NCBI RefSeq assembly: GCF_000264995.1 | Contig: NW_006767437.1 | Location: 1,104,187-1,157,952, forward strand | DNA: 53,766 bases | Direction: 5' to 3' | DNA from: Punctularia strigosozonata HHB-11173 SS5 | Taxonomy: Eukaryota > Basidiomycota > Agaricomycetes > Corticiales > Punctulariaceae | Shown: piece by piece, positions 14,496-34,894 of the stretch | Layout of the letters: each line of letters starts with the position of its first letter | How positions within the stretch are numbered: position 1 is the first letter of the stretch | The notes under the pieces: model-generated | Seen by the model: the letters and a program-made list of their open reading frames with translations, nothing else | Databases searched by the model: none | What the model was told of the DNA's origin: nothing | Position numbers and translations under genes: made by a program

Positions 14496-14894
14496 CACGG
14501 CGGTGCGTATGAAGTTCGCACTAGCCTTGGATTTATAACCGGATACAAAACCGAATTTTGAGATTGGTTCACTTTACCGATGGATTCGGAAGAAGTTTTA
14601 ATACTTCGAGTATTCATGTATTTAATAGCGCAATTAGTTATTTCAAAACGGGTGAGGTGTGGATTTTGAGTATGCGCAATGCGCGTATGTACAACCATAT
14701 TACAAGATTGGATGGGCATATATACTACATTAGGATTTCAAGAATGCGCAAGAACGGAATCGAGATTAGAATTTGAAGAATTCGTTTTGCGACGGATGAG
14801 TGGCATATTTTAAATACAAGAAAAGTCCACATTGGTTGACCCAATCAGCGGCCCGTGAGTGGGCAGTCAGCAACCCGTGAGCGGGCAGTCAACG

Positions 14895-15282
14895 NNNNNN
14901 NNNNNNNNNNNNNNNNNNNNNNNNNNNNNNNNNNNNNNNNNNNNNNNNNNNNNNNNNNNNNNNNNNNNNNNNNNNNNNNNNNNNNNNNNNNNNNNNNNNN
15001 NNNNNNNNNNNNNNNNNNNNNNNNNNNNNNNNNNNNNNNNNNNNNNNNNNNNNNNNNNNNNNNNNNNNNNNNNNNNNNNNNNNNNNNNNNNNNNNNNNNN
15101 NNNNNNNNNNNNNNNNNNNNNNNNNNNNNNNNNNNNNNNNNNNNNNNNNNNNNNNNNNNNNNNNNNNNNNNNNNNNNNNNNNNNNNNNNNNNNNNNNNNN
15201 NNNNNNNNNNNNNNNNNNNNNNNNNNNNNNNNNNNNNNNNNNNNNNNNNNNNNNNNNNNNNNNNNNNNNNNNNNNNNNNNNN
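14895..15282. other. Assembly gap (388 N)
   Basis: A run of 388 N bordered by two identical 388-bp segments (14507-14894 and 15283-15670). The simplest reading is two overlapping contig ends inside the terminal repeat that were scaffolded without merging. A genuine tandem triplication cannot be excluded. Any reading frame running through the N run is meaningless. Confidence 0.9.
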
Positions 15283-15619
15283 GTATGAAGTTCGCACTAG
15301 CCTTGGATTTATAACCGGATACAAAACCGAATTTTGAGATTGGTTCACTTTACCGATGGATTCGGAAGAAGTTTTAATACTTCGAGTATTCATGTATTTA
15401 ATAGCGCAATTAGTTATTTCAAAACGGGTGAGGTGTGGATTTTGAGTATGCGCAATGCGCGTATGTACAACCATATTACAAGATTGGATGGGCATATATA
15501 CTACATTAGGATTTCAAGAATGCGCAAGAACGGAATCGAGATTAGAATTTGAAGAATTCGTTTTGCGACGGATGAGTGGCATATTTTAAATACAAGAAAA
15601 GTCCACATTGGTTGACCCA

Positions 15620-15690
15620 ATCAGCGGCCCGTGAGTGGGCAGTCAGCAACCCGTGAGCGGGCAGTCAACGACCCGTGAGCGCGGACGTGA
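15620..15690 (+). repeat. Subterminal direct repeats in the CACTA ends
   Basis: Three successive copies of a roughly 23-base motif, CCCGTGAGYGGGCAGTCA followed by a short spacer, lie inside the left inverted repeat (also at 14850-14894). They are mirrored in the right repeat near 33731-33783 and 34486-34538. CACTA elements typically carry subterminal repeats bound by element-encoded proteins, and these are the best candidates here. Confidence 0.55.
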
Positions 15691-15847
15691 TCGTCCACCG
15701 TGTTACCAGTGGATCGACGTCGGTTGCCGCGCATGCGACAGAAGGGGCGAGATAGGGCAGCAATGCGCTGGCCGACGGCGAGCGACCACACGCTCGCGTC
15801 AGGCAGGCAGGCGGGCATAAATCGACTCCTATGGTGGTCAGATGGGT

Positions 15848-18800
15848 CTAAATAGACTGGAAAAGTATACTGTAAGAAATAATTCGTGAAGATAGCAATG
15901 ACCATACCGATGGCATCAAGCAAACGACAGCAAGGGTGCTATCAGACAAGGGATAGGTGGCGACATGTTGCACAACGATCTGGGGGTCCACAGGTACGAG
16001 GTCTTCATCCATATCGGCTGAACAAATTGACGCTCCTAATTCCGGCCACTTTGCAAACGGGCCAGGCTCCAAACCTTTGAAGTTCCGGACGGCATACATC
16101 CAAGTACCGCAGTAGAGATATATGTACTCGATAGATGCTATTTGGCTTTGGGGGCCTAACTGGTAGGTAATGAGGCTGTTGCCCATGTGAGCTCGACGAC
16201 AACTGAAGACCTGGCGGTGGTATCGCAAGTGACGACGTAGGATGATCTTCGTGTAGCCACGACATATATCCTTCAGGTCGTCGGGTACCGGAGCCGGTTT
16301 TGCGTATGTGTCCTCCTCGTCAGCCATCGCCACAAAATCGTCCCGTTTGGGAGCGTATACTGTGTCCTAGAGACGTTTGCATGCCCGGACAATATCTGGA
16401 CATGAAGGTCGCGAGAGCCATCGTAGGAGACCGCCGGAATAGACGAAGGTACGATGGATCGTGGCCTCCAGTTCCCTGAAGATATGGTTGTGGTTCGTAC
16501 GCTGCAATTTCCCAATGAGTCGCTCGTACGGAAAACACCACCACGATGGAACGGGGCCAAAAAGCGTGAGGAAATCATGAATGTGGAAAGCGAGGTGGTG
16601 GATTGAATTCAGTTGCAGGTTGGGGTACAAAGTCTTCAGCCCTTCGATATAGCTGCGTAAATGATTGCGGTAGGAATCGGCGCGACGTCGGGAAGTCGTC
16701 CCGCGGCAGCCTACAATCAATGCAAGCACGAGTTCCATGGTGTTGTCAACGGTCGCCATGAAATGAGGTGAGGTTGATTGCGACAGTAAGGAGACTAGGG
16801 CAAGTGGTAGATAAAGCCTGAAAAGTGTGCGCCATTCGGCAGCCTTCGGTGTCCCGGCTGCGGCGGCACCAAAATCCTCAGGAATGCCTTCCACCCAGGA
16901 TGGTTTCGTGGTTTCCTTAGCCACGGAACGAATTCGGGTTAATACGTCGTTCGAGGAGACAGGTCGGACGGGGGGTCGAAGTGGTTGAAGACGACGCTGT
17001 AACCGAATGTCAGAACATGACCCTTCACGCAACACGAGAGAACAACTAACCCACTGAATCAACGCAGATACATACTCTTTTTTGGTGGGATATGATCGTC
17101 TCCCGCTCGCTTTGACGTCAAGGCCCAAATCATGGGCGACAAAGTCTAGAGAAAGAGCTAGCCGTTTCACAAGGTGGGCCCGAAGTTCGTCAAAGGAAAG
17201 ACCGTCTGAATCCTCCGAGCCCCGAATGGCGGAGGTGAGCAGATCATGAGTCTTGAACAGATCTTGCACCTGCTTCGGTGTCCAACCCACGTCGGACACC
17301 TCAGCAGGGTATTCAACAGCTAATTGGTCGCCGATCTGAGGCCCGTCCTGACTGGTCGAGGTAAGATCGTCAACGTCCATGACGTCGGTGGACGCGTCGT
17401 CGCCAACGTCACATTCTTCATCCTCAATGGGTGGAAGCGCAAAGGGGAACACGAACGCCGGCTGAGATTTAGGTGCAACCGTTGCATTTGACTCGGACAG
17501 AGCCAGCACAGTGCAGAAATGAAATTTCGCCAAGCCTTCATACAGGCAATGCATTGGGTCAACAACGAGCTGGCGAGTAGGATCCCAGTAGGGCAGGCGC
17601 CACAATTCGGACCAACGCACTCCATGACGCTTGAAAATTTCGTCCTGTTCCCTCGACGAGGTTGCGTTGCGCCATTGTTCCGCATGCCATCGCATCTCTT
17701 GGCCATCCCGACGGCTCCACGAAAGGTGATCCGTGCGACGAAGGAGGTCCCGCCAGCCTCGGATGATATTACCGTCGTCGTCAGTGACGTTCCAACAGGT
17801 GCACGTCGAGCAGAAAATCTTGGAGATGGATGGGGCCAAGGCAGACGTTTTACGAGCAGCGGGTAGATCGCATACGCCAACAACAATCGCGCTGTGCGTT
17901 AAGCGGCCATGCGGGCGAAGAGCGGTTCGTGAAATGTAAATGCCAGGATGCCATGCCTTGAGCATATCGTCGATGAGAGGACGGATGTAATGGTTTGTCG
18001 CAGTGCGGGCCGGTTCCTTGGGTCCAAGAATGATACCCGCCAGATACATGTTCTGTGGTTTGTATCGTATTTCAATAGGTAGGTTCAAGCAGGCTAGCGC
18101 TATTATGCCACACGATGTACGGGCACCACGAATATTCATCCCTTCAACATTGAAGAAGTCTACGCATAACGAGAAGACGAAGCGACCGTTGTCGGGAATG
18201 TCTCGTATGAATGGGTGCGAGTCCGCGCCTAGGAATCCCTGGAGGAAGGAGGCATGGAAGGGATTCCTGATGGTGTCGTCGTCGGCGTCCATGAAGGATG
18301 GATCTGTCATTGAAGCCGTCGACTCGTCCATCACCCTCTCAAGGTCCGGATCCGAAAGGAGGCTAGAGAGATAATCGGGGAATGAATGATAGAGGTACGT
18401 CTTCAGTGGATCGCCGTTGCTATCGACTAGATGTTGACGGCAATGCGTTTCTGGCGACGGCTTGCCGGTGCAAACCTCGGGGTACCGTCCCATGATGGAG
18501 GGTGGATACGTCTGATGGCAGGAAGGACAAACGGCGTATACAATGAAGTTGCCGCCGGCGCCGAATTTTGATAGCAGAGCCTGGAGGGATGTTGGTAGCT
18601 GTTGATATGACGAATGAAGCGACGAGTCTCCCGGGCGGGACGTAGCCACGTCCATGCAAAGTATCATGGCGCCGATGATGAATTCCACGTCACGTCGACC
18701 AATGCCCATGATAATGTGGCAAATGAATGCGATAGTCATCAAGGCTTGCGCCAGGGGGGTGTATCGGCCGATAGGGCGACTGAAGTGATGAGCTGGAAGA

Positions 18801-19282
18801 TATCTATGAGCTATGACGGACCACGTGAGAATTCAACAAGACTCACCACTGTCGAACATGACGGATCGTAGATGAGGACCCAGAGACCTGTTCCACTCCT
18901 CCAAATCCTCTTCCAGGGTGTCGATATGCGCCACTGCGGCCCTCTTGCCATCTTGGACCAACGGTACTTGGCGATTAAGTTGATGTACGGCACATCGAAG
19001 CTCGGCCAAGCGTCCTCGAAGCTCAAGGCACACCTCGACGCTTCTTGGTTGCGTGAACTTCGACCGACAATCCTCAACCCCTTTGTTGATGCTGGAGAGG
19101 ATACGCATCTGCCTACGTGTAGCGTGGTTGCCATCACCTTGTAGGACAGCTGCATCCGAGTCCTCCACAGGTCTCGGTACAGAAGGGGTCGGAAGGGGGG
19201 GAGGGTGTCGGCCAATCAATCGCAGGTGCAAGGCATCCAAGCGGTCTGTGATTAAGTGATGATCTCTGCGTCGAGCAGGCAT
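15848..19282 (-). pseudogene. Tnp2-type CACTA transposase with in-frame stop
   Basis: Transposase gene of the element. Exon 1 (19282-18847) encodes an Arg-rich, partly helical N-terminus. A 54-nt intron (18846-18793, GTGAGT...TTCCAG) joins it in phase to exon 2, which starts AHHFSRPIGRYTPLAQ. Near residue 230 there is CPSCHQTYPP, a possible metal-binding motif. The catalytic Tnp2 region follows, with DFFNVEGMNIRG, CSTCTCWNV and WRLPYWDPTRQLVVDPMHC then LYEGLAKFHF, the last being the most diagnostic. The frame meets a single TAG at 16369-16367 after about 953 residues. It then continues open in the same frame for 172 more codons (KPAPVPDDLKDIC, GNSLITYQLG), which match the conserved C-terminus of the family. 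No intron can remove the TAG. The enzyme is therefore truncated unless the stop is read through or is a sequencing error. Confidence 0.8.
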
Positions 19283-19745
19283 GGCGAATGAAGGGCGATT
19301 GCTGGAAGAATCGGTCTATATATATGTTAGTCAATAACAAGAAAATATAACAACGAAGAACGACATACCGTACAACGATGTCGGGCCAACGAAACAAACA
19401 CCAGACAAGGCATCCACGACAAGGTATCCACATACCCAGTCGTTAAGACAACTCCTCCAAAGCGCCGAGGCAAGACAGGCCGGATATCCACATACCCAGC
19501 CGAAAGGGACGAACTCCAAAGGTAACCATAAAGAGAACAAGGCTCATGGGACTCGTCACGGCGGCCACACACCGAGACAAGTGAAAGTACCCTTGCGCCC
19601 TTGGAGTCCACACCCCAAGGAAACAGCGGGCACGAAAGGGTCCAAACGCACTAGGTGTCTACACACCACGGCGATCGATGGAGGAGGGAGCGAGGGAATG
19701 ACTCCGGTTTCCGCCACAGGCCACCGGTCTTCGTCGGTCACCCGC
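19283..19745. other. Spacer between transposase and satellites
   Basis: No gene recognised. It probably holds the transposase promoter, since the transposase starts at 19282 and reads leftward. The phrase ATCCACATACCCAG occurs twice (near 19425 and 19487) about 62 bases apart. Confidence 0.4.
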
Positions 19746-19868
19746 CCACCGCACAGACCACCCATCCCGCCACCGCACAGACCACCCATCCCACCACCGC
19801 ACAGACCACCCATCCCGCCACCGCACAGACCACCCATCTCGCCACCGCACAGACCACCCATCCCGACA
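19746..19868. repeat. 24-bp minisatellite
   Basis: About five tandem copies of CCACCGCACAGACCACCCATCCCG at starts 19746, 19770, 19794, 19818 and 19842, differing by single bases. The frames stay open on both strands because 24 is a multiple of three. The peptides (HRPPIPPP, GGLCGGGM) have no coding support. Confidence 0.85.
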
Positions 19869-19941
19869 CCACCCGTCGTCTTCATTCGTCTTCATCTGTT
19901 CATCATCTGGCCGGAAATCTCGACGTGAAGGCGGGTGGCCC

Positions 19942-20220
19942 ACCCGCGATGTGGATCGCGGGTGTGGCCTTCACCGTGGTCGTCGTCAACGTCTCCTCTC
20001 TGGTCCTTTGCTGTTGTCGTCGTTGTCGCCGTTGTCGTTGTCATTGTCATTGTCGTTGTCGTCGTTGTCGTTGTCGTTGTCGTTGTCATCTTTCTCGATC
20101 TCCCTCCCACCCCGCAATGTGGATTGCGGGTGTGGCCTTCACTGTCGTTATCGTGGTGGGCATGCTCTTCTCTCGATCTCGCACCTGCGCCCCGCGATGT
20201 GGATTGCGGGATGTGGTTAG
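19942..20220 (+). repeat. Hairpin family, cluster 1 (GTGG loop)
   Basis: Three short inverted repeats share the loop GTGG. At 19942-19962 the stem is ACCCGCGAT with ATCGCGGGT. At 20111-20130 it is CCCGCAAT with ATTGCGGG, a two-sided change that keeps pairing. At 20201-20220 it is CCCGCGAT with ATTGCGGG, with one wobble pair. The first two are followed by GTGTGGCCTTCAC. The same hairpins occur in reverse-complement form at 28.70-29.27 kb. Confidence 0.8.
20012..20088. repeat. GTTGTC/GTCGTT microsatellite
   Basis: A run of interrupted trinucleotide-based repeats (TGTCGT, TGTCAT) about 77 bases long, between hairpins 1 and 2 of cluster 1. It gives poly-Val or poly-Thr frames with no coding support. 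Confidence 0.85.
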
Positions 20221-20331
20221 CGGGTGTAGCCGTCATCATCGTCGTCGTATCCTTCCTCGTCATCACCACTGTCTGCCCACCCCTATATTCTAGTCAAGAC
20301 AGGCAATTGCTCGTATCGTAAGTACTATAAG

Positions 20332-23025
20332 TCAATTCCCGAACGGAAGAACATTTACTAAAGCCCATTCTTCTTCTGTGGGACACAGGACTTCGTTGAT
20401 GTACGCTTCGCTATGCTCTTCCAAGTACGCTGCGTCATAGAGCGATCGCGTCAAACCCTTCACGGGCTCACGCTTCGAAACGCGGATATCGTCAGCCTGC
20501 GGATGAGCACCCTTCAACCACGCCGTAGCTCTGTCAGATCGGCGACGAGGGAGCGGTCTAGTGCCTTGGTTCGCAAATGCCCCTCCCCCTTCGAAGCGGT
20601 AGCTATCGATGGCGTCTAGGAATGCATCCATGTCACGGCGCCAAAGCATGACGCTTGGTTTGAGATATGCCACATGCATGTCTTCGTCGAGGTCGGATTC
20701 ATCGGAACTCATTCCATCAATACCGAGCCTATCGAGGGTAGTCTCGGCCGCCTTCCACACAGCCTGTTCGGTCGTACTCTTCGACGTACAATACTTGTGG
20801 TGGCAAATTTTCTTGCGCCTGTGGAGACGCTGGGGATGTCGTTAGCGCACGACTATTTCCATCTGGTTCATCGACCTACTGCCATTCTTCTAGTTCGCTT
20901 GCGATTTGCATCGCCCTCATCCTTCGCGTCCTTGCGCAACCGCGTATCTCGTTTGCTATCCCTTCCCGTTGCCCCCCTGGCAGTCGTCTCGTGCCTCCAT
21001 GTCCGTTCATTGGGATCCTGCACCAAGCGAGGTCTCGCCTTCATCCACTCCGTTCGCAAGCGCATCCACTTGTGGTAAACGGCGTCCTCCCAATACAGGA
21101 AGGTTGCGACTGGTATCCGTTGAAGAGGTTTACCAACCTGCCATATCTCTGAATCCTGCCTCCCCATACATTTCCGCGCGAGGATAGCACATACTGCGCG
21201 GTTCCAAGTGTTGTCGGCGGGCGAGATGTCGGTGAACGCGTAGTTGACAAAGTCTGCCTCCGTTGGGCCGTCGGTCGAACCATCCAGGAATGCATTAACT
21301 ACTGCTTCCGGGGGTGCGATCAACTGGATCGCATCCTTGTCCATCCCGACTCCGATTACGTTCTCGAAAACCTGACGGACTATCGCCTGGTACTTCGTCA
21401 GCCCCCGTCGAAGGAAGAGGGCAATGATAAACGTACGAGCTGAAAAAGACGACGTGGCCCCTTCATCTCGTCTATCTCGAGCTCCAGGGACGTCTTATAT
21501 CGTTTGGCCGCGGCCCTGTCCTTCGATGCTCGCCCAACCACCGTGTCTTCCCACTCATATATCCTTGAGGTGCCAGCGGGTGGCCCCTTGGACGACCTAT
21601 GACCTGAGCTTGTACGTGGTGGGCCTGGTTCCGACTGTCTGCCAGTGTTCATCCCATCCGCATCTGTTGGCCGAGGTGGCTCGGCTGGCGGTGTCGTCGA
21701 TGGTAGGGCTGGTTCGATTGGCGATGTCGTCAATGGTGGAGCTGGTTCGATCAGTGGCGTCGTTGAAGACGGGACCGACGGGTCTTTGACCGGAGGTGCA
21801 GGCGAGGTGGTGTCGCCCGCGACCGTTGCTTGTCTGGCGGTCTCCAGTTGCTGTATAGCCTGGTTGAGTTTCTTTCCCTCACCCGTAATGAGGAGTTCGT
21901 ACCTGTAAGAATCGCACGAACCGTGTCTCCATCTTTGCCTCCATCTCTTCCATCTTCGTTACAGCGACGCAAACCCGGCTCTGCAGCTCCTGCACCAACT
22001 CGTCCTTTTTGGCTAAGTCCTCCTTCAACGTCTCAAGTTCCTTGTTCGCCTCGACCAGCCTATCTCGCGTGGCGGCGTCCATCTCCTGGGTCCTCGTCCT
22101 CAGCTCCATCATACTCCGAGAGGTGGCACTCAGGGTCGAGTTCCTTTGCGCCAGCGTCCTCCTGAGACGATGATTTTGCTCCAGCTGGACGCTCTGCGAC
22201 GGCGTCAGCTTCCTGCCTGTAGCAGGTGTCGCACTCCGTGCCCGCTTTTGCGCGCGGGTGGTTTCGGGCTGGGACAACACGAAAGTGAACTCTCGTGGAT
22301 GGCCTGTGTATCAACCTCGGCTTCAGCTTGCAGCAGAAGTGAGCTGTATCAGGACCTACCACCATCGTTCGAGGTCTCGGTTGGCGCTACACTTGCCGAC
22401 CTTGCGCGCGGCGTGCTCTGTAAACGATTAGACCGAGAAGTGGACGACATAATATGCAATCTACCTCGTTTGCTTCATTCGTCGTTGAGGAAGGTCCGTC
22501 TAGCGGTGTCGATACTCGAGAACCCTCAGCAGGATATGCCGGTGCGACGGCACTTGAACTGAGAGGAGCTGGAGATGGCAACATTGGGAATGCACCAGGC
22601 ACGTTAACCTCACTGGGAGGTCTGTGTACGAAGAGATCAGGCACTGGGCCGAACCGGGTTGTGGACAGTGACATGGGGAATACGTTTCCCTCGCTAGTGG
22701 CCGCCGGTGCGAAGAGGATAGGCATTGGGCTGAGGGGAGCCGCCAACGACAATGTCGGAATCGCGGCGGGCGTCGTCCAACCGCTTGCGTGCGTCGCCGC
22801 AAATCCTACCTCGCTCGCAAGCAGCGCCGCCTGAGTTATGAAAGTCAGCTCATGCGGTTTGACGCCATTAGGATCTCATACCTCTGTGCCGGACCATACG
22901 GCGGACTCGGACATGTCCACGTCTCCCGGGGAGCCGGATGACGCAAAGTCACCGTCGGACATGGAGACATCGTTACTGTTGGCTTGGTTGCCGCTCCTGT
23001 TCAAGTCAGGATGTTCAGCAGACAT
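20332..23025 (-). CDS. Coiled-coil companion protein of the CACTA element
   Basis: A multi-exon gene starting at the ATG at 23025. Exon 1 (23025-22882) encodes an acidic Ser/Asp-rich N-terminus. A 51-nt intron leads to exon 2 (22830-22465, Ser/Pro-rich), then a short exon ending TSNDG and an exon starting GHPREFTFVLS. A coiled coil of about 90 residues follows (RLRRTLAQRNSTLSATSRSM through AKKDELVQELQSR). Next come a Pro/Thr-rich linker and a conserved block (DKDAIQLIAPPEAVVNAFL). The last exon carries GIDGMSSDESDLDED and MLWRRDMDAFLDAIDSYRF and ends at 20332. This matches a family common in Agaricomycetes beside transposons and of unknown function. Near 21.90 kb the coil exon (RFVRFLQ) and the next block (YELLITGEG) are one base out of phase, which is either a frameshift or an unrecognised intron. 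The gene may be broken there. Confidence 0.7.
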
Positions 23026-23600
23026 GGCGTAGGTATCTGCTTTGTGCTCAGCGCCCTCCCAGTTTTAACTTTATGGCAGAGATTGTTACCTATCACGTGC
23101 TCTGGTCTCATCGCAACAATAGGAGACGACTTTGCCACCACCTGCGGATGCCAATCCTTATTATTTTCTACGACGCGTGGACGCCGTGACAATGCATTCC
23201 CTCGTTGTCTTTTAGTGAGGGAGTGGTCCCTTGCTACCGGATGCCTGTGTTCCGAGAGGTTCCGCGTCAATTCGACGACCATAGTACCCTCCCCACAATT
23301 GCCGACGTCCCGTCTTTTAGTGAGGGAGTGGTCTCTTGCTACCGGACGCCTACGTCTCCGAGAAACTCTGCGTTGATCCGACGACCGTTGTACCTTCCTC
23401 ACACTCACCGACGACCGGTCACCGAGTTCAATTGTAAACGAGTCCGCCTCCATTGGTGCTCCCGTGCGGTATTGTCTGTGCGGCGGAGCTCGGAGGCCCT
23501 CAACGCTACGGTCGTTGCAGCACAGGGGAGTTGGACGATCATCTCGTCGACATAAAATGCCCACCATCGGCGACGTTTGTCATTCACATTGACCCCGTAT
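23026..23600. repeat. Spacer with two copies of a ~105-bp repeat
   Basis: CTTTTAGTGAGGGAGTGGTC followed by TTGCTACCGGA appears near 23207 and again near 23312, each followed by a related but diverged tail. The stretch lies between the divergent starts of the companion gene and the small plus-strand gene and may hold both promoters. Confidence 0.65.
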
Positions 23601-23752
23601 CAGAATATGCCGTCCTCTCGTCGCCGCTGCACACCCACCCATGGAGAGGTCGTACCATCGGATCAATCTCGTCGTTACTATGCTGACCTCTGCAAAAGAT
23701 CCGTAGCTTCAAAATCACCGGACGCATTTACTCGCATCGATTGCCATCTCCT

Positions 23753-24243
23753 ATGGGGGTGAAACTCGATGTGGACGACGATACTGTTACCCGATTTCCA
23801 CTACTCGAGCGCTATCTTGACGATGAAAGGGTGCAGCCATTTATTCACGATTGTATCGTCACCTTGCACGAAGGTCCCCGCATCCACCGATACCTCGTGT
23901 TCTTCAAGCGCCATGTGCGGCTGCGAGTGAACGTTGGTTTACCTGGAAATTCTACCGGTTCCATTCCTTTCCGCGGTGACGTTCTGGTTGCGCGAGCCGG
24001 CGTCCGCAGGCCCGGATGCATTGTCAACATGCGCAGTCGTGACCACGCTTTGGCCGACTTGGCACTTGGATTGTAGGTGCATTCTATTCAACCATCGGTT
24101 AATCTGAACTCTTCCTTCTATTCAGGTTCATTCGGGACTTCGCCAAAGTCTGTCGCACCCGGAAATCGTGCTTGCCACGAGAGATTTCATTCGACGTAGA
24201 TACCACAGGTCCTCGCCGTTCTGCGCGTCTTGCTAGCATATAA
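23753..24243 (+). CDS. Small basic protein, unrecognised family
   Basis: Exon 1 from the ATG at 23753 to 24072 is joined by a 53-nt intron (24073-24125, GTAGGT...TTCAG) to exon 2, 24126-24243, for 145 residues. The frame stays open about 60 bases upstream of that ATG. An alternative upstream exon beginning near 23608 (MPSSRRRCTPTHGE) is possible, so the start is uncertain. The protein has an acidic start (KLDVDDDTVTRF), a central basic stretch (YLVFFKRHVRLRVNVGLP) and a basic C-terminus (RRSARLASI). I recognise no domain. It sits inside the CACTA element and converges on the gene at 24252. Confidence 0.55.
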
Positions 24244-24251: not shown

Positions 24252-24795
24252 TTATGAATACATTTTAAAGCTAGCATCATTAATGAATAATGAACGGATG
24301 CGACCATGTCGCGAGTGCAAATAAGGCGAAGTTTGCAGGGGTAGCAGCCCCACCCGTCCGACACCGTCGATAATAACCGTGCCTCCGCGAAATTGGCATG
24401 AAGCCCGCTGGCCGTCGGCAGTCGCGAAGTAAATCCGGACACACTGTTCAGCAATCCAAACAAACTTGCGCACAGGACCGAGGCGCTGTAATGGTGATGA
24501 GCTGTTATTGTCTCTGAAAGACGGCCGGAACCGTTACCTCGCTCCACGTACGCAGTGCCTGCAGTCTGCGGCTCTCCTCTTTGCGGATGCCAGTGATTTC
24601 CAATATGTACTCAGGGAATACGCGACTTGTGAACGTATGTAGATCAAACAATTGAGGGGCAGACTGGTTTCTCTCATCCCCAGAGTCATCCGACCACTCG
24701 GAATACTCGGTGGGCATGGTAAAAAGTACGGGGAAGTATTTTTTGGCCTTCCTTCCCAAACTGGACTTTATATCGAGTGCTTTGACAATTTCCAT
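24252..24795 (-). CDS. Small hypothetical protein, two exons
   Basis: Exon 1, 24795-24538, begins MEIVKALDIKSSLGRKAKKY. A 52-nt intron (24537-24486, GTAACG...TTACAG) joins in phase 0 to exon 2, 24485-24252, which begins RLGPVRKFVWIAEQCVRIY. The product is 163 residues with an acidic central patch (EWSDDSGDERN). I recognise no family. It lies just downstream of the gene at 24836 on the same strand, 40 bases after that gene's stop, so the two might be read from one transcript. Confidence 0.55.
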
Positions 24796-24835
24796 TGCAT
24801 AACGTAAAAGAATACACGTGTACCACTAGATTGAG

Positions 24836-25844
24836 CTACGATACATCTTTATTGGACTGGGGAACGGGGCGACCCTCTCTGTGACGGCCCACGGTATATC
24901 TCAAGCGTGCATTGAGAAAATCATCGATGGGCCAGGCACCGACGTAGCGCTCGACCAACTCAGGAAAGGCGGTTCCAACCGCAGCACGTGCACGCTTTCT
25001 TGCCTCAGCGGTCTGAGCACTCAATAGTTTGCGATGGTCGCAATGCTGCGCGACAATCTCGTTGATTGTGTCCTGACAATCTCGTCAGAATAGATGCGGC
25101 AGAATAGATGCGGTAGATAAGCCAACTCCTGACCTTCATATTGGCGTACTCCTTCGCGGTGACTGCAAGCGCACTCTCGAGCGTGTATCCACCCCGTGAG
25201 GGGCGGCCACAGTCCCCTGCAGGCTTTTTCAGAGGCGGTTCAGCATCCGACGGCTCAAGCTCGTCTACTTCTTCTTCATCAGTCGCGCCGGAATGATTCC
25301 AGCGTACACGCCGGTCCTCGGATGGGAGCCCGACTACTTCCTCCACCACAGGAAGAAGACGGCCGGGACCCGGTGCAAGTTTTCGGGATTGTCGGGAGAT
25401 ATGGCGAGGTGTCGCAGCGCGAGGAGGTTGTGACGAGGGACGAGGAGGGACAGACGTCTGCCTAGGGGGCTGTGATGAGGAGCGACGAGGAGGCGCCAAC
25501 TGCGGTGCAATGAACGGCTGCACCGTAGAAGCACGCGTTGCTGATGTAGGCATAGTCGAGGGGATGAGCTTCGACTCCGGTTCCGGCGGGGAGGAATAAG
25601 CACGATCGCCGGGTGGCTTGGGGCTGCGCAGCTGGCGTATCTGATATGGGTGGCCGCAGATAGTGAGTTTCCTCCTGGTATGGCGGTCGGGGCCACCAGG
25701 GACAACCTCGATGTTGGGTAGAGCCGATGGTGGAGATGACGGGTAAAGGATACTATCGAAGTCGAGCAATGGGAGTAAGACATATCTGAGAGGGGGGGGC
25801 GACGGCGGTTGATAGAAAGGATAGATAGACAATGTCGACTCCAT
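24836..25844 (-). CDS. Pro-rich protein of a transposon-associated Agaricomycete family
   Basis: Exon 1, 25844-25134, encodes a Pro/Ser-rich N-terminus. It holds an acidic patch (DEEEVDELEPSDAE) followed by a conserved signature, CGRPSRGGYTLESAL. A 61-nt intron (25133-25073, GTCAGG...GTCAG) joins in phase 0 to exon 2, 25072-24836, with DTINEIVAQHCDHRKLLSAQ and a final block ELVERYVGAWPIDDFLNARL. The product is 315 residues. The GRP-x-RGGY-x-LE signature, the intron just after it, and the terminal W-P-x-x-D/DFL block are all features of a family seen repeatedly in mushroom genomes near DNA transposons. Its function is unknown. The structure looks intact. Confidence 0.68.
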
Positions 25845-25959: not shown

Positions 25960-26560
25960 TGCGTTGAAACGTCGCGAGGGACATAACAAAAGTGCTGACA
26001 ATAAAGTCCATCCCGGGACGTCACCACAGGCAACGCGATATCGCAGAGAAAGCGGCGGGATAATAGGTAACCAGCGGAGCCTCCGGTAGATCCGTGGCGG
26101 GGAGACGTTGCCACCACAGGCAACGTTGCAAAGGGAATGACAGAGAAAGCGGCGGGATAATAGGTAACCAGCGGAGCCTCCGGTAGATCCGTGGCGGGGA
26201 GACGTTGCCACCACAGGCAACGTTGCAAAGGGAACGAAACAATGATTATTCACAAATGAGCGGCATCTGAGGACGTCGCCACCGCAGTCAACATCGCAAA
26301 GAAAGCGATGAGACAATAACTCGTAACCAGCGAAGCCTCGAGGAGATCCACGGGGTGGAGACATCGCCACCACAGGCAACGTCGGAAAGGAGACGACAAA
26401 TTTGTAGTCGACAAATGAAGGACAATCGACGCTTGCCAAGAAAGCCGCGGAATAATAGCTTGTAGACAGCGGGGAATAATAGCTTGTAGACAGCGGAGCC
26501 TCGGGTGATTCCATACGTCGCTAGCACAGGCAACGTCGCAAGGGAGACGACACAATAGCA
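25960..26560. repeat. Tandem repeat block with ~97-bp unit
   Basis: Two nearly identical 97-base units start at 26052 and 26149 (core GATCCGTGGCGGGGAGACGTTGCC). More diverged, shorter copies continue to about 26.5 kb. Each unit carries the inverted motif CGTTGCC/GGCAACG around CACCACA, a small hairpin. It occupies the whole interval between the divergent genes at 25844 and 26645, so it may include both promoters. Confidence 0.75.
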
Positions 26561-26644
26561 GTCGCCCAACGAGCGACACTGACAATTGGAGATGTAAGCA
26601 TTATAAAACGGTCAGAAGCTCTGCACGAACGCTAAATACTCACC

Positions 26645-28103
26645 ATGTCATCGTTGTCGTTGTCGTCGTCGTCATCGCCGGAACTCACAAAGTGGATGCG
26701 CTCTGCCAACCGTTTCACATGCGCTGGTCGTGTCCAGATCCGGAATGAGAAAGCGGTGTATAAGCTCGCGTTCTCCCCCGACGGAAAATCACTGGCTTGT
26801 GGAGGTGAGGACCACGACAGCCGGACACGTCTTTTCACTGACTGGCGCAGGGGAGTTCGGTTTCCATGTGGTATGCGTCGAGACGGCGTCTATTCAAGGG
26901 GGTACTCCAGTATACGACCCACGGGTCTACGGAGCGGTGATGGCCATCGAGTGGATCGGCGATACGCTCGTGTTAGGCACCGCATATGGCTACATCAAAA
27001 TCTGGGGACAGCGAGAGGGTGCGCTCCAGGAGTGGCATACTATTCGTGTTGCAGAAGGGACGGAGGTTACCTCCCTCGCAACGCGCGGGCAACCAGCCCA
27101 GTTCAAGCTGGCGATTGCCACAAGGGACCGTGTTAACGCACTGTTCGATATTACACCCCTCGCCGTGATGGAGGTCTACGCTGTGCAGATGGAGAAGACG
27201 GTCGCCAGGACGGTCGCGTTCTCTGGGGACCAGGATATCTTTGTCCTCGGGATGTTCGATGGCATGATGTACGTGCAACTCCGCGTTCTCAGGCATACGC
27301 GCATTCATGAATGAGCAGTTACACGATCCGTAATGAGGAGGGGGAGGTCAAAGTTGGCACGCCGCGTCAGGTGTGCAGGGTAATGTGAGTAGAACGGTTC
27401 CTTCGGATCCCGGTGTAACTCAGATAACGCGCAGAGGTAACGGAACTTTTGACGTGGAACGCGGAGAAGTACTTGTCGACAACACGGACGCCTTTGCGGT
27501 TCATAGCACCGAAACGGGAAGCTGCCTTAACGTCTTCTCGACGGGGCGACCAACACGAAGGGTTCCGAAGCAAGCCGTTTTTGGAGAGCGAGGGCAAACA
27601 GTGGTTGTGGGGAGCGACCACGGCGATGTATACGTGTTCGAAAGGGCTGGGGGACATCCGCAGGCAATCCTCCATCACGGGGAGAGCGGATACACGCAAA
27701 CAGTCGCGGTGCGTTGGATTCCACAATCCAGAGGACGACATCACTGAAATATGTCCAGACATTTGCAGATGACCAAGAATCCTTGGTTGCATGTGGGACA
27801 TCGAGTAGCGGATTGCCAAGCTCGATATCGATATGGAAGGGTAAACTGGTGAAGCCATTGGAGCAGCAGCCGCCGCCGAAGACACGGTCCATAACAAACG
27901 TGGCGCGAGGGATTAGCGATATCATAAAGACAATGGGGAGTTGGCTTTTCGCCATCTGGATGATATATAAGATGTTGGTACGTGCCAGGCAGGAATGGGG
28001 AAGTGAATATTATCTGATTGGCCAACAGGAAACGCAGCCTGGGTCAGATATCAAGTCATACTGGCAGGGAACTGTGCGACCAGCATTGCTCGGCGTTCTG
28101 TAG
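26645..28103 (+). CDS. WD40-repeat protein with C-terminal membrane segment (transposon cargo)
   Basis: Five exons join in phase without any disruption: 26645-26804, 26851-27268, 27319-27384, 27435-27708 and 27759-28103. They encode 420 residues. All four introns are 46-50 nt with GTGAGG, GTACGT, GTGAGT and GTGCGT donors. The N-terminus is a Ser run, followed by the first clear WD40 blade (AVYKLAFSPDGKSLACGGE). Later blades include WIGDTLVLGTAYGYIKIWG and QTVVVGSDHGDVYVFE, suggesting about six. Near residue 365 there is a single hydrophobic stretch, WLFAIWMIYKMLV, which may anchor it to a membrane. WD40 propellers act as protein-binding scaffolds; the partner is unknown. Intact splicing and frame suggest the gene is, or was recently, functional. 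It looks like a captured host gene. Confidence 0.8.
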
Positions 28104-28135
28104 TCCTCATCGAATTCAAGAGTTTTGCTTTTGGG

Positions 28136-28400
28136 GACGCTGACGGCGTCTTGCAGCGTTTCGCAGAAGGATGGACGAGGATGTTACCGGGACGCTAGAT
28201 GTCTACCGTAGTTCGCGGTCCACACCGCAAACATCACGAAAAAACGGCATAGCGTCTTGGCGAATCCAGGGGTTTTGCGTTCCGGGATGCTGACGGCGTC
28301 TGGCAGTGTTTCACAGGAGGATGGGTATGGACACTAGCGCGGCCGGATGTCTACCGTGGTTCGCGGACCACACCGCGAACATCACGGAAATGGGCCGATG
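28136..28400. repeat. 150-bp tandem repeat carrying GTTCGCGG hairpins
   Basis: Two units 150 bases apart start near 28136 and 28286 (GCTGACGGCGTCTKGCAG). Each contains GTCTACCGTRGTTCGCGG, a loop, and CCGCRAAC. In the second unit (28359-28380) the stem GTTCGCGG/CCGCGAAC is perfect with the loop ACCACA. In the first it has one mismatch. This lies just after the WD40 gene's stop. Confidence 0.75.
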
Positions 28401-28703
28401 GAAGATGCAGAAAGTGTCTATCCTGCCCTGTAAGAGCATGAGACGGTATAAGAAACAGGACGAGATCAGGACTTACGGCGTCGACGGTCTGGATATCGGG
28501 CGCAACTCACGCCGATGTCCAACGTCCAAGCCGACACATATGTTGCCCTTGAGGTTCCGTTCGGGTACTAGTCGGTGCGCTCTGACGGAGCTGGGCTGAT
28601 GGAGTACCGAGACGTAAGAATGAGAGTAAATGGGATCAGGTCAAGAAGACTTACAGAGGCCGCACAATTCACGCCGGCGAGGAGACTACGGTGACTTGCC
28701 CGC

Positions 28704-29267
28704 GCTTGCAATCCGCATCGCGAGCAAACGAGAGACGGTGCAAAGAAGGAGACAACACGATGAAGCTGCGCTCGCGATCCACATCGCGAGCAGGCTTAAG
28801 ATCAGGCTACGGCGACGGCACGGGCGACGGCAATGGCAATGGCGATGAGGGTTTCAGCAGAAGAGAACATCAATCCACATTGCAGGCGGGTTCAAACAGA
28901 AGGGGATGGCTCAGGATAAGGCAACGAGGAAGGCGAGGGGGATGGCGACGAGGATGGCAAGGAGGATGGCCACGAGGATGGCAACGAGGATGGCCACGAG
29001 GATGGCAACGAGGATGGCAACGAGGAGAGCGACGACAGCGATAACAGCGACAACAGCGACGACCTCCACGAGGACGACAGGGCTGCGCTCGCGATCCACA
29101 TCGCGAGGCGGGTTGAACGAAAGGAATTGGCTAAGCATAAGGCAACGGCGAGGACGGCGCCGAGGAAGGCGAAGGTTGAGGCCAGGGAAGATGAGCGGCG
29201 AAGTCCAAACAAATTAAAGGGTGATGTGATAAATGCCGCGTCGTGTGCTCGTGATCCACATCGCGAG
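28704..29267 (-). repeat. Hairpin family, cluster 2 (CCAC loop)
   Basis: Reverse-complement members of the cluster 1 hairpin family. Perfect 8-bp stems CTCGCGAT/ATCGCGAG with loop CCAC lie at 28771-28790 and 29088-29107. Variants with a changed base are at 28704-28725, 28873-28884 and 29248-29267. The motifs are spaced roughly 65-205 bases apart. Confidence 0.8.
28930..29035. repeat. 12-bp minisatellite (GAGGATGGCAAC)
   Basis: Seven or more copies of GAGGATGGCAAC or GAGGATGGCCAC, followed by related GACGACAGC and AACAGC triplet-like sequence to about 29060. Both strands are open only because the unit is a multiple of three. Confidence 0.85.
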
Positions 29268-29409
29268 GCGGGCTGAACGAAAGGAAATGGCTAAGCATAA
29301 GGCAACGGCGAGGACGGTGCCGAGGAAGGCGAAGGTCAAGGCCAGGGAAGATGAGCGGCGAAGTCCAAACAAATTAAAGGGTGATGTGATAAATGCCGCG
29401 TCGTGTGCT
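29088..29409. repeat. Exact-length 160-bp tandem duplication
   Basis: Units 29088-29247 and 29248-29407 differ at only a few positions. Each opens with a CTCGYGAT-CCAC-ATCGCGAG hairpin and contains AAGTCCAAACAAATTAAAGG. The hairpin is therefore the unit boundary. Confidence 0.85.
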
Positions 29410-30172
29410 ACTTCTTGGCTAAAGGCCGCGTCGTGCGCCATTTCCTGGGGTAGGCGCCGCCTCGTGTGCCGCCTCGTGGGGTAGATGCCGCTAACGTGCC
29501 GACTGATGCCGACTCCCCATTGGTGGGGTGCTCTCGGCCGAATGCGACGGCGGCGCGGGATTGGTGCGTCATTGGTCCCTCTTGGCACTGCGGTGGGACA
29601 GTCGGCGGACGGTGACGATATTGTATATCTATTCCTTCCGCTCCTTTCTCTCCCCTTATCCTCTTACTTCGACGTCGCAGAGGGAGTGGTCCCTCTGTTG
29701 TCTCAGCCTCACTGCCGTTCCTCTCGCCCTCGCAAACGCCGTGGTCTCGTCTCGGTGCCGTTGAGTGTGGACCCAACGCCATTGAGTGTGGATTCGAACC
29801 TACGTCTGCTCTTGTCATCCCGTTGGTCGGCTGGTACTCGTCTCAGAGGTGTGGTCCTCTGGGGCAGGTATTCGGCACCGCTCGTGCATCGTCCTCGTAC
29901 TAAAGGCGCGTTTTTTTTTGGTACTTTCTTCTGTAAGGCGACCCTAATATTATCTCTCTGCAGTCGAATATCGAATAACGCATCCCTCCGTGCTTGAGAA
30001 CCGTTCGTTGGAGTCATGCTTGGGTCAGTTTTGTTTCGCACTTTCCTGTTTGAGTAGCAACTGATGGCAATACAGAAACAGGCAATTGTACGTGTTCAGG
30101 CGCGACGGAGTCCTCTGGGCGTCGCCTACTCGCAATCATGCACCGCCGGAAGGGACCCCGACGCAGCCTGAA
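29410..30172. other. Spacer upstream of the 1,116-residue gene
   Basis: No gene recognised. It begins with short repeats of GCCGCGTCGTGTGC. Near 29900-29950 a T-rich run (GTTTTTTTTTGG) is followed by CTTTCTTCTG, typical of fungal upstream regions. The stretch likely holds the promoter and possibly a 5' non-coding exon of the next gene. Confidence 0.4.
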
Positions 30173-33100
30173 ATGAGTGTCCCTCCCCTCGAGTACCGTA
30201 TCAAACATCTGCACGAACGTCAATGGCTACACAATAGCTGCTACTTCGCCCCGTTTTACCCTCAACCTACCCAATTCCACGGCACTCCGTTGGAGTCTCT
30301 CTCCTATGTGCCTCGCGACAAAATGAATATGATCCCCAACGAGGAGTCTTGCTTCCGATGTGTGCACGCCGAGAGCTGGGCAGGACTCGAAGAGCGGTTC
30401 CTCACCGCCATCGCATGGTTGGAGAAGTGGATCTCCACGATGGCTTTTTTGCCTCAGACGTTCATGGTCAGGTTTTTGCGTCCGTTCGATCCACCCTCGT
30501 CGTTCTCCTACATGGAATGGACCAGCGAGACCCTCGCTCGCGATAATGCTTTCGCTGCGAGGCGTGCGCTCGTACTCCTTGCAACCAAACTCGCGTTCTT
30601 GGTCGCCATGGTCAATGATACCGCAAGCAACCCAGACGCCTGGAGCACCATACTTGAAACTTACAATTACGGTCCACGTCTGGACCCCGCGTTCGTCGAC
30701 GTCTTGTCGAAGTCGTGGGTGGTTCGGAACGATCGCAGTTTGCCCAGGATCGGGTTCTATTGGTACCCGGGGAGTCTGCTTCCGGACTGCTCTTTTCGAT
30801 TTTTCATCAACGCCAACGTACCGATCTACATTTACTGGGGTGACGCACAGACCCTTCTTTTGAAATTGCCACGCGAACTATCGGCGGACCTTCGACCCAC
30901 ACCTGAACAAGCTCGCAGTGCGATCGACCTGACAGGCCACCCACTGTCCCCCGCACCCCGCCCGCGCCGTTCTCGTACCACGGCCGCGTCGACGTCGACG
31001 TCTGTACCTGGTTCTTTCCCGTCGCAGGACGAGCCGTGGATTCCAAGCACCGGCTTACCGGCCCCTTCGTCTTCCAACTGGGGGACGCCGGGAAATTGGG
31101 CTGATCCTTCACCTGGTTGGGGATCAAGCGATTGGCATTCGCAGGACTGGGGGATGAGTACCTGGGGAACTGCGTCACCGCCCCGCCCGTCCACACCGTA
31201 TCAGCCCGTACCGCGTATGGAGCCTTCGCTGACGGAGTACGGCATCGTACCGGCAGTTCGCCCGCCGCATATATTTGGCAACACACAGGTCCTCGACGCC
31301 CAGCGAAACCACGAGAAGAAAAGGTATCACGCCGGGGAGGTTATACCCAGTCTTCGATGGGAAGAGGGTCAGGATTTCCGCACTTTCCACATCCGTCGCC
31401 GCGATTACCACAACTATTATATCAACCACCTCGAGAATCCTCGACTCCGCCAAAGCCGATTGTCCCGTGAAGCCAACGCAGCCAGATATCCTTTGCCTTC
31501 GCAAGGTGGTACAGCTGTAATCTTTGAGTGGCAGGACGGTATTCGTCAGAGGGTTCCTGAGTGGAATCGGGAAACGATATGGAATGACTTGAGGAACCCT
31601 TGGAAGAAGAAGTATGACTCCGTCCTCGACGAATGGGATTTAAGCTATGACTTTGTTACCCATGGCTCCTATTGGAAGAAGAAGGAGGAGGAGGAGAAGC
31701 GCGATCCTTATGCCTGCATGGACGAAGACGAAGACTATGTGTCTGCTTACGGTGACGAGGACGACAACCCCGATGAACTCGTTCCTACACCGTTGTACCG
31801 TGACATTGACTTCAACCCCCCCCTCCCGCCCGGGGAACCCGAGCCGATGCGTGTGCCCTCACTGTCGGAGCCCGCTCCGGCCTCAGCTTCGACGTCCAGG
31901 CCGATGCCAACGCCGCCCTCGCCCTCTGCGCCAGCCCTCACGCCCTCGTCGTCTGCGCCGGCCCCCCCGCCATCGTCGTCTGTGTCGTCCCTGCCCTTGT
32001 CTGCGGTGTCGTCATCGTCATCCCAAGTACCATCGTTGTTGTCGACGGCGTCGCCAGCCTCATCTTCTGCGCCACCACCGACCTCTCCGACCCAATCATC
32101 TGCGTTCCCGCTTCGGTCGACTACGCCGTCCACTTCGACTTTGTCAGGTCCCTCGTTCGGGACCGTGTCGGGGGCTTCGACGTCTTCGTGGGTGCCTGTA
32201 TCGGTATCGCCGGATGCGTCGTTGGTTAATACTACCCCACGCGGGACGACGCCTACAGCGTCGCTGTCTTCGGATGTGGATCCGATGGACATCGATGCCC
32301 CTGGTCCTCCTAGTCTCACTCCTGCTCCGTCGGATGTGGATCCGGTGGACATTGACGGGACTACCAATGCCCAGGATGATGGTGCTGTCTTCGTGCCTAA
32401 CCGACGACGTCCCGATCCCATGTTTTTGGACGACATGACGTTCCCCGTGAGGCATCCTCTTAGACTGTTGCGGGAGCATTTCGGTCTTCTGCCCCTCCCG
32501 GGTACAGCTTTCCCCGTTAATACCACAAACCTCCAGGTCGATACGTTATATCACGCTTATAAAGTCCTGGGGTACTTCTTGCCGGGTGACCGTGAGGAAC
32601 ATCTCGACGCTGGTATATCGGCTCAGACCGCAAATGAGGTGCTCGGGTTCATCGGGTCGCTTATCCTCGGTTCCAAGATGTCGGCCCCTGCCAACTCAGC
32701 CTTGTTCCCTCCGCCCCCGTCATGGCTATACCGGTTGGAATCATCGCACATACTTCAGATGAGGCTGACGAACAACTGGCGCTGCGTACCGGTTCAAAAT
32801 GGTTGGGCTCTGCGGTCCCTTGGCATCGAGGATCGTTGTGTTGTTTACCTTCAGGATCCCGCGTTCGTTCTGGAGATCATCACCAGCGCCATGCAAGCCG
32901 TTGAAGACGTCGCCGTCTGGTTGTTGCAGATGGGTGTCCCTTTTAATCTACTCGACCGGAGGAAGAGGCCGTCGTCGCGGAAAATCGTGATCCACTCGCC
33001 CGTCCGCGTCATACGGGATTTTCAATCGTATGTGGACGACCTAAGTGACTACCTGTCTTGTCGGGATCATCGCAAGGTCCTTCGTGCAGCGTTCCTAGCA

Positions 33101-33523
33101 GGCGGTATAATATGGCGCATCGTCCAGCACATGTACGATGAGTCTGTCGCGCTCGGCCCTCCGTCGGATAGAGCTCATCATGACAACATCGGCCTTCACA
33201 TTGTCGTTGACAACGTTGAATACGTCGACGACTTGCTGACGGCTGATGAGATCAATCTCATCATCGGCAAACATTCCTCCGGAACTGCGTCATGGTGGCC
33301 ATCGCCTGATACTTGGAATGGATCTTCAATTGGTCGAGGATGGTGGAGCGAAAATGCCGAGGACTTCTTCCAGCGCCGCCTTCTGGATTGTCGAGATCCT
33401 CGCAGAAGCCAGGTGCTGAGAAATTCAGTCTGGAAAGATGTCTTGAAGGCGGATCGACGCGTCAAACCCGTGCTAAATGCATTGAAGATACACGCCGAGA
33501 AAGCGCTTGAAGCTGTCCTTTAG
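30173..33523 (+). CDS. Large uncharacterised Agaricomycete protein carried by the CACTA element
   Basis: A single uninterrupted frame of 1,116 residues. I chose the ATG at 30173 (MSVPPLEYRIKHLHERQWLH) because the 29 open codons before it contain no ATG. Residues 1-250 form a Trp/Phe-rich globular region (WLEKWISTMAFLPQTFMVRF, IGFYWYPGSLLPDCSFRFF, IYIYWGDAQ). A Ser/Pro/Trp-rich stretch follows, then a charged segment (KKYDSVLDEWDLSYDFVTHG) and an acidic loop. Next is a long low-complexity Ser/Pro/Ala region with two DVDPxDID motifs, and finally a folded C-terminal part of about 350 residues (LEIITSAMQAVEDVAVWLLQ, VDDLSDYLSCRDHRKVLRAA). The family recurs in mushroom genomes, often near transposons, but I cannot assign a function. 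It is intact, 57 bases from the right inverted repeat. Confidence 0.75.
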   Translation: MSVPPLEYRIKHLHERQWLHNSCYFAPFYPQPTQFHGTPLESLSYVPRDKMNMIPNEESCFRCVHAESWAGLEERFLTAIAWLEKWISTMAFLPQTFMVRFLRPFDPPSSFSYMEWTSETLARDNAFAARRALVLLATKLAFLVAMVNDTASNPDAWSTILETYNYGPRLDPAFVDVLSKSWVVRNDRSLPRIGFYWYPGSLLPDCSFRFFINANVPIYIYWGDAQTLLLKLPRELSADLRPTPEQARSAIDLTGHPLSPAPRPRRSRTTAASTSTSVPGSFPSQDEPWIPSTGLPAPSSSNWGTPGNWADPSPGWGSSDWHSQDWGMSTWGTASPPRPSTPYQPVPRMEPSLTEYGIVPAVRPPHIFGNTQVLDAQRNHEKKRYHAGEVIPSLRWEEGQDFRTFHIRRRDYHNYYINHLENPRLRQSRLSREANAARYPLPSQGGTAVIFEWQDGIRQRVPEWNRETIWNDLRNPWKKKYDSVLDEWDLSYDFVTHGSYWKKKEEEEKRDPYACMDEDEDYVSAYGDEDDNPDELVPTPLYRDIDFNPPLPPGEPEPMRVPSLSEPAPASASTSRPMPTPPSPSAPALTPSSSAPAPPPSSSVSSLPLSAVSSSSSQVPSLLSTASPASSSAPPPTSPTQSSAFPLRSTTPSTSTLSGPSFGTVSGASTSSWVPVSVSPDASLVNTTPRGTTPTASLSSDVDPMDIDAPGPPSLTPAPSDVDPVDIDGTTNAQDDGAVFVPNRRRPDPMFLDDMTFPVRHPLRLLREHFGLLPLPGTAFPVNTTNLQVDTLYHAYKVLGYFLPGDREEHLDAGISAQTANEVLGFIGSLILGSKMSAPANSALFPPPPSWLYRLESSHILQMRLTNNWRCVPVQNGWALRSLGIEDRCVVYLQDPAFVLEIITSAMQAVEDVAVWLLQMGVPFNLLDRRKRPSSRKIVIHSPVRVIRDFQSYVDDLSDYLSCRDHRKVLRAAFLAGGIIWRIVQHMYDESVALGPPSDRAHHDNIGLHIVVDNVEYVDDLLTADEINLIIGKHSSGTASWWPSPDTWNGSSIGRGWWSENAEDFFQRRLLDCRDPRRSQVLRNSVWKDVLKADRRVKPVLNALKIHAEKALEAVL

Positions 33524-33580
33524 GTGCGTTTGTTTCCCGCATGCAGAGACGGAACATCGTGATTTATTAATCTCGTCTGT

Positions 33581-34894
33581 AGAAGTCGATTTAGGCCCGC
33601 CTGTCCGCCTGACGCGAGCGTGTGGTCGCTCGCCGCCGGCCAGCGCATTGCTGCCCTATCTCGCCCCTTCTGTCGCATGCGCGGCAACCGACGTCGATCC
33701 ACTGGTAACACGGTGGACGATCACGTCCGCGCTCACGGGTCGTTGACTGCCCGCTCACGGGTTGCTGACTGCCCACTCACGGGCCGCTGATTGGGTCAAC
33801 CAATGTGGACTTTTCTTGTATTTAAAATATGCCACTCATCCGTCGCAAAACGAATTCTTCAAATTCTAATCTCGATTCCGTTCTTGCGCATTCTTGAAAT
33901 CCTAATGTAGTATATATGCCCATCCAATCTTGTAATATGGTTGTACATACGCGCATTGCGCATACTCAAAATCCACACCTCACCCGTTTTGAAATANNNN
34001 NNNNNNNNNNNNNNNNNNNNNNNNNNNNNNNNNNNNNNNNNNNNNNNNNNNNNNNNNNNNNNNNNNNNNNNNNNNNNNNNNNNNNNNNNNNNNNNNNNNN
34101 NNNNNNNNNNNNNNNNNNNNNNNNNNNNNNNNNNNNNNNNNNNNNNNNNNNNNNNNNNNNNNNNNNNNNNNNNNNNNNNNNNNNNNNNNNNNNNNNNNNN
34201 NNNNNNNNNNNNNNNNNNNNNNNNNNNNNNNNNNNNNNNNNNNNNNNNNNNNNNNNNNNNNNNNNNNNNNNNNNNNNNNNNNNNNNNNNNNNNNNNNNNN
34301 NNNNNNNNNNNNNNNNNNNNNNNNNNNNNNNNNNNNNNNNNNNNNNNNNNNNNNNNNNNNNNNNNNNNNNNNNNNNNNNNNNNNNNNNNNNNNNNNNNNN
34401 NNNNNNNNNNNNNNNNNNNNNNNNNNNNNNCATGCGCGGCAACCGACGTCGATCCACTGGTAACACGGTGGACGATCACGTCCGCGCTCACGGGTCGTTG
34501 ACTGCCCGCTCACGGGTTGCTGACTGCCCACTCACGGGCCGCTGATTGGGTCAACCAATGTGGACTTTTCTTGTATTTAAAATATGCCACTCATCCGTCG
34601 CAAAACGAATTCTTCAAATTCTAATCTCGATTCCGTTCTTGCGCATTCTTGAAATCCTAATGTAGTATATATGCCCATCCAATCTTGTAATATGGTTGTA
34701 CATACGCGCATTGCGCATACTCAAAATCCACACCTCACCCGTTTTGAAATAACTAATTGCGCTATTAAATACATGAATACTCGAAGTATTAAAACTTCTT
34801 TCGAATCCATCGGTAAAGTGAACCAATCTCAAAATTCGGTTTTGTATCCGGTTATAAATCCAAGGCTAGTGCGAACTTCATACCCACCGCTGTG
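33581..34894 (-). repeat. Right terminal inverted repeat (with gap and duplicated segment)
   Basis: Reverse complement of the left repeat. The unit is 95 bases at 33581-33675 plus 464 bases at 34431-34894, again exactly 559. Bases 33676-33996 are repeated at 34431-34751. Differences from the left copy seen by eye are about eight single bases, for example TTCGGAAG left against TTCGAAAG right, and two near the extreme ends. Confidence 0.85.
33997..34430. other. Assembly gap (434 N)
   Basis: A run of 434 N inside the right inverted repeat, bordered by a 321-bp direct duplication. As on the left, this looks like unmerged overlapping contig ends. Collapsing it restores the same 559-bp repeat length as on the left. 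Confidence 0.9.

Follow-up and report, generated by a model that had tools for sequence, protein, structure and literature searches.

A giant, probably autonomous EnSpm/CACTA transposon with a probable set of co-inherited accessory genes in Punctularia strigosozonata

A 53,766-bp stretch of the genome of Punctularia strigosozonata HHB-11173 SS5 (contig NW_006767437.1, C5:1104187-1157952; hereafter the window) carries a CACTA element, here called E, at window positions 14496-34894. Between its inverted repeats lie a tnp2-type transposase gene and five accessory genes, g2 to g6, which are best read from sequence comparison as a conserved set belonging to a giant fungal EnSpm lineage. A search of the genome (33.6 Mb, 32 contigs) with the transposase exon gave nine related loci, namely E and the relatives A, B, C5b, C9, C13, C27, C12 and C18.

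The element and its target site

The raw length of E is 20,399 bp. Its left end at 14496 reads CACGGCGGTGCG and its right end at 34894, in reverse complement, reads CACAGCGGTGGG. A target-site duplication of 3 bp, GGA, flanks the element at 14493-14495 and 34895-34897. The surrounding DNA is a tandem array of DUF6535 (PF20153) genes on the plus strand (3761-5371, 9093-10520 and 35660-36370), and E is inserted in the array unit that holds the gene remnant at 35660-36370. A paralogous unit of the array, 2221-4630, is unbroken at the insertion point of E, with GAA at 3189-3191 as the uninterrupted target. Positions 2221-3178 of this unit match the left flank (13579-14482) at 70% and positions 3191-4630 match the right flank (34897-36346) at 89%; when joined, the flanks of E align across that point. 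The first-pass annotation had proposed a complete CACTA element and an empty site near 3187-3206 with only two base differences. Both the element and the empty site were confirmed, with three differences counted over 3187-3206. The CACTA element E is real: its ends, its 3-bp duplication and the paralogous empty site all check out, and a tnp2 transposase lies inside.

The terminal inverted repeats, 14496-15831 on the left (+) and 33580-34894 on the right (-), each contain a run of N (14895-15282, 388 positions; 33997-34430, 434 positions) and are thus non-contiguous in the assembly. The borders of both gaps are duplicated. Positions 14507-14894 equal 15283-15670 (388 bp, 100%), and 33676-33996 equal 34431-34751 (321 bp, 100%). 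Because identical sequence borders both sides of each gap, the gaps are most simply read as contig ends left unmerged. With the duplicates merged, the inferred repeat is 560 bp long and E shrinks to about 18.9 kb. Aligned with the two right pieces, the left repeat shows 3 differences over 464 positions with one and 5 over 417 with the other, at 8 distinct sites in total. The nearly identical inverted repeats of 559 bp described earlier therefore stand once collapsed, at 560 bp with 8 differing positions, but not as contiguous sequence.

Transposase and accessory genes

The transposase gene occupies 15848-19433 on the minus strand and is spliced, with predicted exon borders. Its main exon, an open reading frame (ORF) at 16370-18832, matches PF02992 (Transposase_21, tnp2) with 31.6 bits against a cut-off of 28.6, and its C-terminal exon (15848-16359) is kept in sibling A. 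No match was found in a PDB search with the transposase exon. Catalytic residues were aligned in eight of the nine family transposases, C9 being left out. D385 (the first D), E930, C504, C506, H906 and H910 are invariant in all eight. The second D, within CDLPA or ADLKA, is found in seven; the C13 model is without that stretch. The DDE residues are thus present together with the C(2)C and H(3)H motifs, the first Cys of C(2)C being shifted in C12 and C18.

Gene models were built with a spliced-gene script of our own, using sibling A as a guide, and their exon borders are predictions. The Pfam scan covered 17 of the 31 ORFs of at least 150 amino acids in the interior of E, plus the full g2, g3, g4 and g6 main-exon models, and none of these four genes matched a Pfam family. 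On the minus strand, g2 (20332-22082; predicted 534 amino acids) has homologues in A, C5b, C9, C13 and C12 and a weak one in C18. It is followed by g3 (23607-24243, +; predicted 178 amino acids), which shares 69% identity with its counterpart in A and has homologues in C12, C18 and on contig C11. Next, g4 (24252-25844, -; predicted 466 amino acids) is 51% identical in A, with shorter matches in C5b, C13 and C27. The C5b model of g4 has a RING-like N-terminus, with one family barely above cut-off (PF00097, 21.8 against 21), which is possibly a piece of a neighbouring gene. The last gene, g6 (29506-33523, +), has a main exon ORF of 1152 amino acids at 30065-33520.

The product of g5 (26616-28042, +; start and last exons uncertain) resembles a WD40-type beta-propeller. 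The likeness is weak and lies below Pfam cut-offs in both members scanned (E and C5b). Among five models, a hydrophobic stretch after the propeller (Kyte-Doolittle scale) is strong in C5b and C13 (2.6-2.7), moderate in A (1.8) and weak in E (1.2), and none is found there in C27. Ten further ORFs of C27, C12, C5b and C13 gave no Pfam family above cut-off. A PDB search with g6 alone and a PDB profile search with g3 gave no match. A profile search with g6 returned two chains annotated as Immunoglobulin G-binding protein A (E-values 0.028 and 0.11), which were taken as chance. The interior is thus multi-gene, as was first noted, with five conserved non-transposase genes supported rather than the six or more counted at first.

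A family of related loci

The accessory genes are found where the transposases are. In the genome searches, at least one homologue of the five lies near each of the nine transposase loci, with only g6 at B, only g5 at C27 and only g3 at C18; weaker homologues were added by local tblastn. Queries with g2 to g6 gave 23 accessory loci once exon matches had been grouped by us. For 22 of these, one of the nine family transposases is no more than about 46 kb away. All 23 are more than 700 kb from nine further PF02992 loci in the genome. When E and A are set aside, 12 of 13 accessory loci are still near family transposases, and the stretches concerned cover about 3% of the genome. These loci are not independent, given the roughly 95% similarity between C9 and C13. 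The exception is a g3 homologue at C11:227847-228224, which has one stop in the matched stretch and whose contig yielded no family transposase; it may be either a remnant or an independent gene.

Five elements could be read at both ends, and in all five the termini are CAC with a duplication of 3 bp (GGA, TAT, ATA, TAC and AAC). With four other elements of this genome agreeing in this way, the ends of E go beyond chance. Lengths range between 12.7 and 60 kb. Sibling A (C1:483522-502827; TAT) has left and right repeats that are 82% identical and a 296-bp N gap, and sibling B (C1:2913461-2926207; ATA) has repeats that are 87% identical and a 3.5-kb N gap. Both start with CACGGCGGT at both ends. 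The more distant elements on C13 (737898-774187; TAC; 36.3 kb) and C9 (29956-90044; AAC; 60.1 kb) start with CACGCCCAGAG. The first-pass annotation had named ends of other copies that do not coincide as grounds for refutation, and these ends are the outcome of that check. The left repeat of C9 includes a nested insertion of 6.7 kb (C9:30011-36675), bounded by TGTCAG..CTGACA and flanked by a GGAAT duplication of 5 bp. The extra length of C9 and C13 may be nested elements. An inverted repeat of 526 bp (99.8%) at C5b runs into N, and one of 458 bp (99.6%) at C27 has one arm at a contig end. No inverted repeat was found at C12 and C18 in the stretches read.

A subterminal motif of the CCCGTGAGCG type recurs in the repeats of E. 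A single related site is present in each of A and B, and none in C13, C5b or C27. Small non-autonomous derivatives were sought with the left repeat of E, which matched, besides its own copies, only the right end of A (66%), and with the C13 repeat, which matched C13 and C9 only.

Gene order recurs as well. With the transposase (tnp) on the left, E reads tnp(-) g2(-) g3(+) g4(-) g5(+) g6(+), C13 reads tnp(-) g2(-) g4(+) g5(+) g6(+) and C5b reads tnp(-) g2(-) g4(+) g5(+). The order in C12 and C18 is tnp(-) g2(-) g3(+) g6(-), where the g6 matches are weak and g2 is weak in C18. C27 deviates with tnp(-) g5(-) g4(-). All five accessory genes are kept in A, as tnp(-) g5(-) g4(+) g3(-) g2(+) g6(+), where g2-g5 as a block is flipped with respect to the two element ends. 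Usual CACTA elements have one or two genes, and against these E is indeed not ordinary, as had been claimed; in its own genome it is one of nine related loci.

Age and decay

The near-identity of the repeats of E had been taken to imply recent movement. This inference fails when siblings are compared. Between A and B the matching ends share about 97% identity, though the left and right repeats within each differ far more. Because matching ends are far closer than the two ends of either element, the left-right difference was carried along by transposition, and repeat identity was ruled out as an insertion clock. The claim is further weakened by the assembly gaps at which the repeats of E sit.

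CpG content offers another view. In two aligned stretches of A and B, 86 sites are CpG in B but TpG or CpA in A, and 20 are the reverse. The observed/expected ratio of CpG is 0.53 in the flanks of A (C1:480001-506000), compared with 1.11 in the interior of E and 1.10 and 1.09 in its flanks. Because of this excess of CpG-to-TpG/CpA change and its CpG-poor flanks, A looks methylated and decaying, and E does not. The lack of CpG decay in E hints, more usefully than repeat identity does, at a recent origin of E or at its escape from silencing.

Neighbouring features

Other features of the window lie outside the element. An acetate kinase fragment (PF00871, 44.7 bits) is found inside the DUF6535 array at 6832-7410 (-). 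A diverged tandem repeat array with 24/48-bp periods, G-rich on the plus strand, lies at 38998-39677 within an open frame (38722-40119, -) that has no Pfam match. A KDZ transposase fragment (PF18758, 109.8 bits) at 46381-46962 (+) shows that another type of transposon is present, some 11 kb beyond the right end of E. No tRNA was found in the window. A laccase exon of this genome matched 33 laccase-type PDB chains (E-values up to 1e-30; best 9gly_A, 5.4e-56), which together with the DUF6535 and KDZ genes points to a basidiomycete host.

Interpretation and alternatives

The region is probably a copy of a giant EnSpm/CACTA transposon, itself probably autonomous, whose co-inherited accessory set most likely serves its own propagation. 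Its anatomy, the empty site, the separate insertion sites of its siblings, the conserved catalytic residues and the co-located accessory genes are direct observations. The tnp2-type DDE transposase would bind the inverted repeats of about 560 bp, cut at the CAC..GTG ends and insert the element with a 3-bp duplication, as it presumably still does. Rather than chance passengers, g2 to g6 would be a co-inherited set of the lineage, different subsets of which stay next to the transposase even in relatives whose transposase is only about 29% identical. Their products may aid propagation as DNA-binding partners of the transposase, by countering host silencing, or both.

Comparison of E with A shows signs of purifying selection on the accessory genes. 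The ratio of nonsynonymous to synonymous divergence (dN to dS; omega) was 0.06 for the transposase, 0.09 for g3, 0.15 for g4, 0.13 for g5 and 0.23 for the C-terminal part of g6; the values are indicative only, because dS is saturated or high and because the masking of columns with low local identity lowers dN.

Several points weigh against this interpretation. The dS values between E and A are saturated for g2 and the remaining part of g6, and at least 1.6 elsewhere. The close pair A and B points to weak constraint, with omega at 0.88 for the transposase and 0.44 for g6. Sibling B is without g2-g5 outside its 3.5-kb N gap, yet it has its own insertion site, so that any helper role may be exerted in trans or be dispensable. 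The set is also incomplete elsewhere: g3 was not found in C13, C9, C5b or C27 (the middles of C9 and C13 being partly read), g4 and g5 were not found in C12, and C18 gave no g4 and one very weak match to g5 (both middles likewise partly read). The g3 locus on C11 has no family transposase nearby. For every accessory gene, a part in propagation is one that we infer.

Could the accessory genes instead be host genes that a CACTA transposon picked up as passengers (Pack-type or adaptive cargo) and that serve the host or nothing? The genes have no known function, relatives differ in gene content and the C11 copy of g3 lies away from any family transposase, all of which would suit such an origin. 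It is nonetheless unlikely, given that the other 22 accessory loci sit beside family transposases and that no host copy except C11 was found at the search cut-off. The order of the genes is also largely retained among relatives of about 29-70% transposase identity, and the signs of purifying selection on the accessory genes speak against it. An assembly artefact, in which two short inverted repeats at contig gaps were mis-scaffolded around host genes, would account for the N gaps and duplicated sequence in both repeats. This is very improbable: in sibling A, on another contig, the same genes are enclosed by a separate pair of repeats and interrupted by no more than a 296-bp gap, no N occurs in the two ends of C13 or in the stretches read between them, and the target duplication and empty site of E fit insertion. 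A giant element of virus-like type (Maverick/Polinton), or a Starship merely carrying a CACTA-like gene, would share the size, long inverted repeats and several genes of E, but it is hardly credible in view of the 3-bp duplications, the tnp2 transposase and a scan in which no polymerase, capsid or recombinase family was matched by 17 of the 31 interior ORFs or by the full g2, g3, g4 and g6 main-exon models.

The giant EnSpm/CACTA transposon reading can be extended. Tentatively, and with somewhat more doubt than confidence, these loci may represent an undescribed lineage of giant CACTA elements in Basidiomycota, with spans to 36-60 kb, in which up to five conserved proteins form a transposition or anti-silencing machine of a complexity like that of virus-like giant elements. 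The set would comprise a WD40-like propeller, with a hydrophobic tail in some members, and four proteins of unknown fold. One or two proteins are usually considered enough for a cut-and-paste transposon. A lineage that retains up to five extra genes through deep divergence makes the needs of such an element testable. Do the extra proteins act in targeting, in tolerance of size or in escape from silencing? Furthermore, an apparently silenced state (A) and an apparently unsilenced state (E) of one family can be compared in a single genome.

Comparison with known systems

Several other types of large or related elements were considered. Maverick/Polinton elements carry genes for a protein-primed DNA polymerase, an integrase and capsid proteins and make duplications of 5-6 bp. 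None of these genes was found among the 17 of 31 interior ORFs scanned, and the 3-bp duplications of E do not fit. KDZ (Kyakuja-Dileera-Zisupton) elements have 7-8 bp duplications and a KDZ transposase, whereas E has a 3-bp duplication, and PF18758 was absent from the matches of the 17 interior ORFs. Starships are described as giant multi-gene fungal mobile elements moved by a tyrosine recombinase (PMC13066641). The family of E is similarly giant, multi-gene and fungal but has a tnp2-type DDE transposase instead, and no captain recombinase was found among the 17 of 31 interior ORFs scanned. Plavaka is a related group of mushroom transposases whose termini are reported as TGT..ACA or CATCA..TGATG (PMC12730594). 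The termini of the E family differ, being CACGGCGG or CACGCCC, and neither Plavaka form is present in the five elements read at both ends.

The closest likeness is to fungal EnSpm elements. As described by Kojima (2025; PMC12730594), these have CAC..GTG termini, 3-bp duplications, and C(2)C and H(3-4)H motifs between the second D and the last E. The same termini, duplication length and C(2)C/H motifs were all found in the E family. In the TET-bearing EnSpm elements of that paper the extra gene studied is a TET/JBP dioxygenase, whereas E has five other accessory genes, and the Pfam scans made here linked none of these to a dioxygenase. The literature searched yielded no account of this set of fungal genes, with subscription papers and Repbase outside the search and one eukaryote genome compared; its novelty is provisional because these comparisons are limited in this way. 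Enlarged EnSpm elements of 16-20 kb with 4-5 ORFs are described from the red alga Chondrus crispus (PMC6431247). These are likewise multi-gene CACTA elements of similar size, from another kingdom, and are likened to E by size and multi-gene content only.

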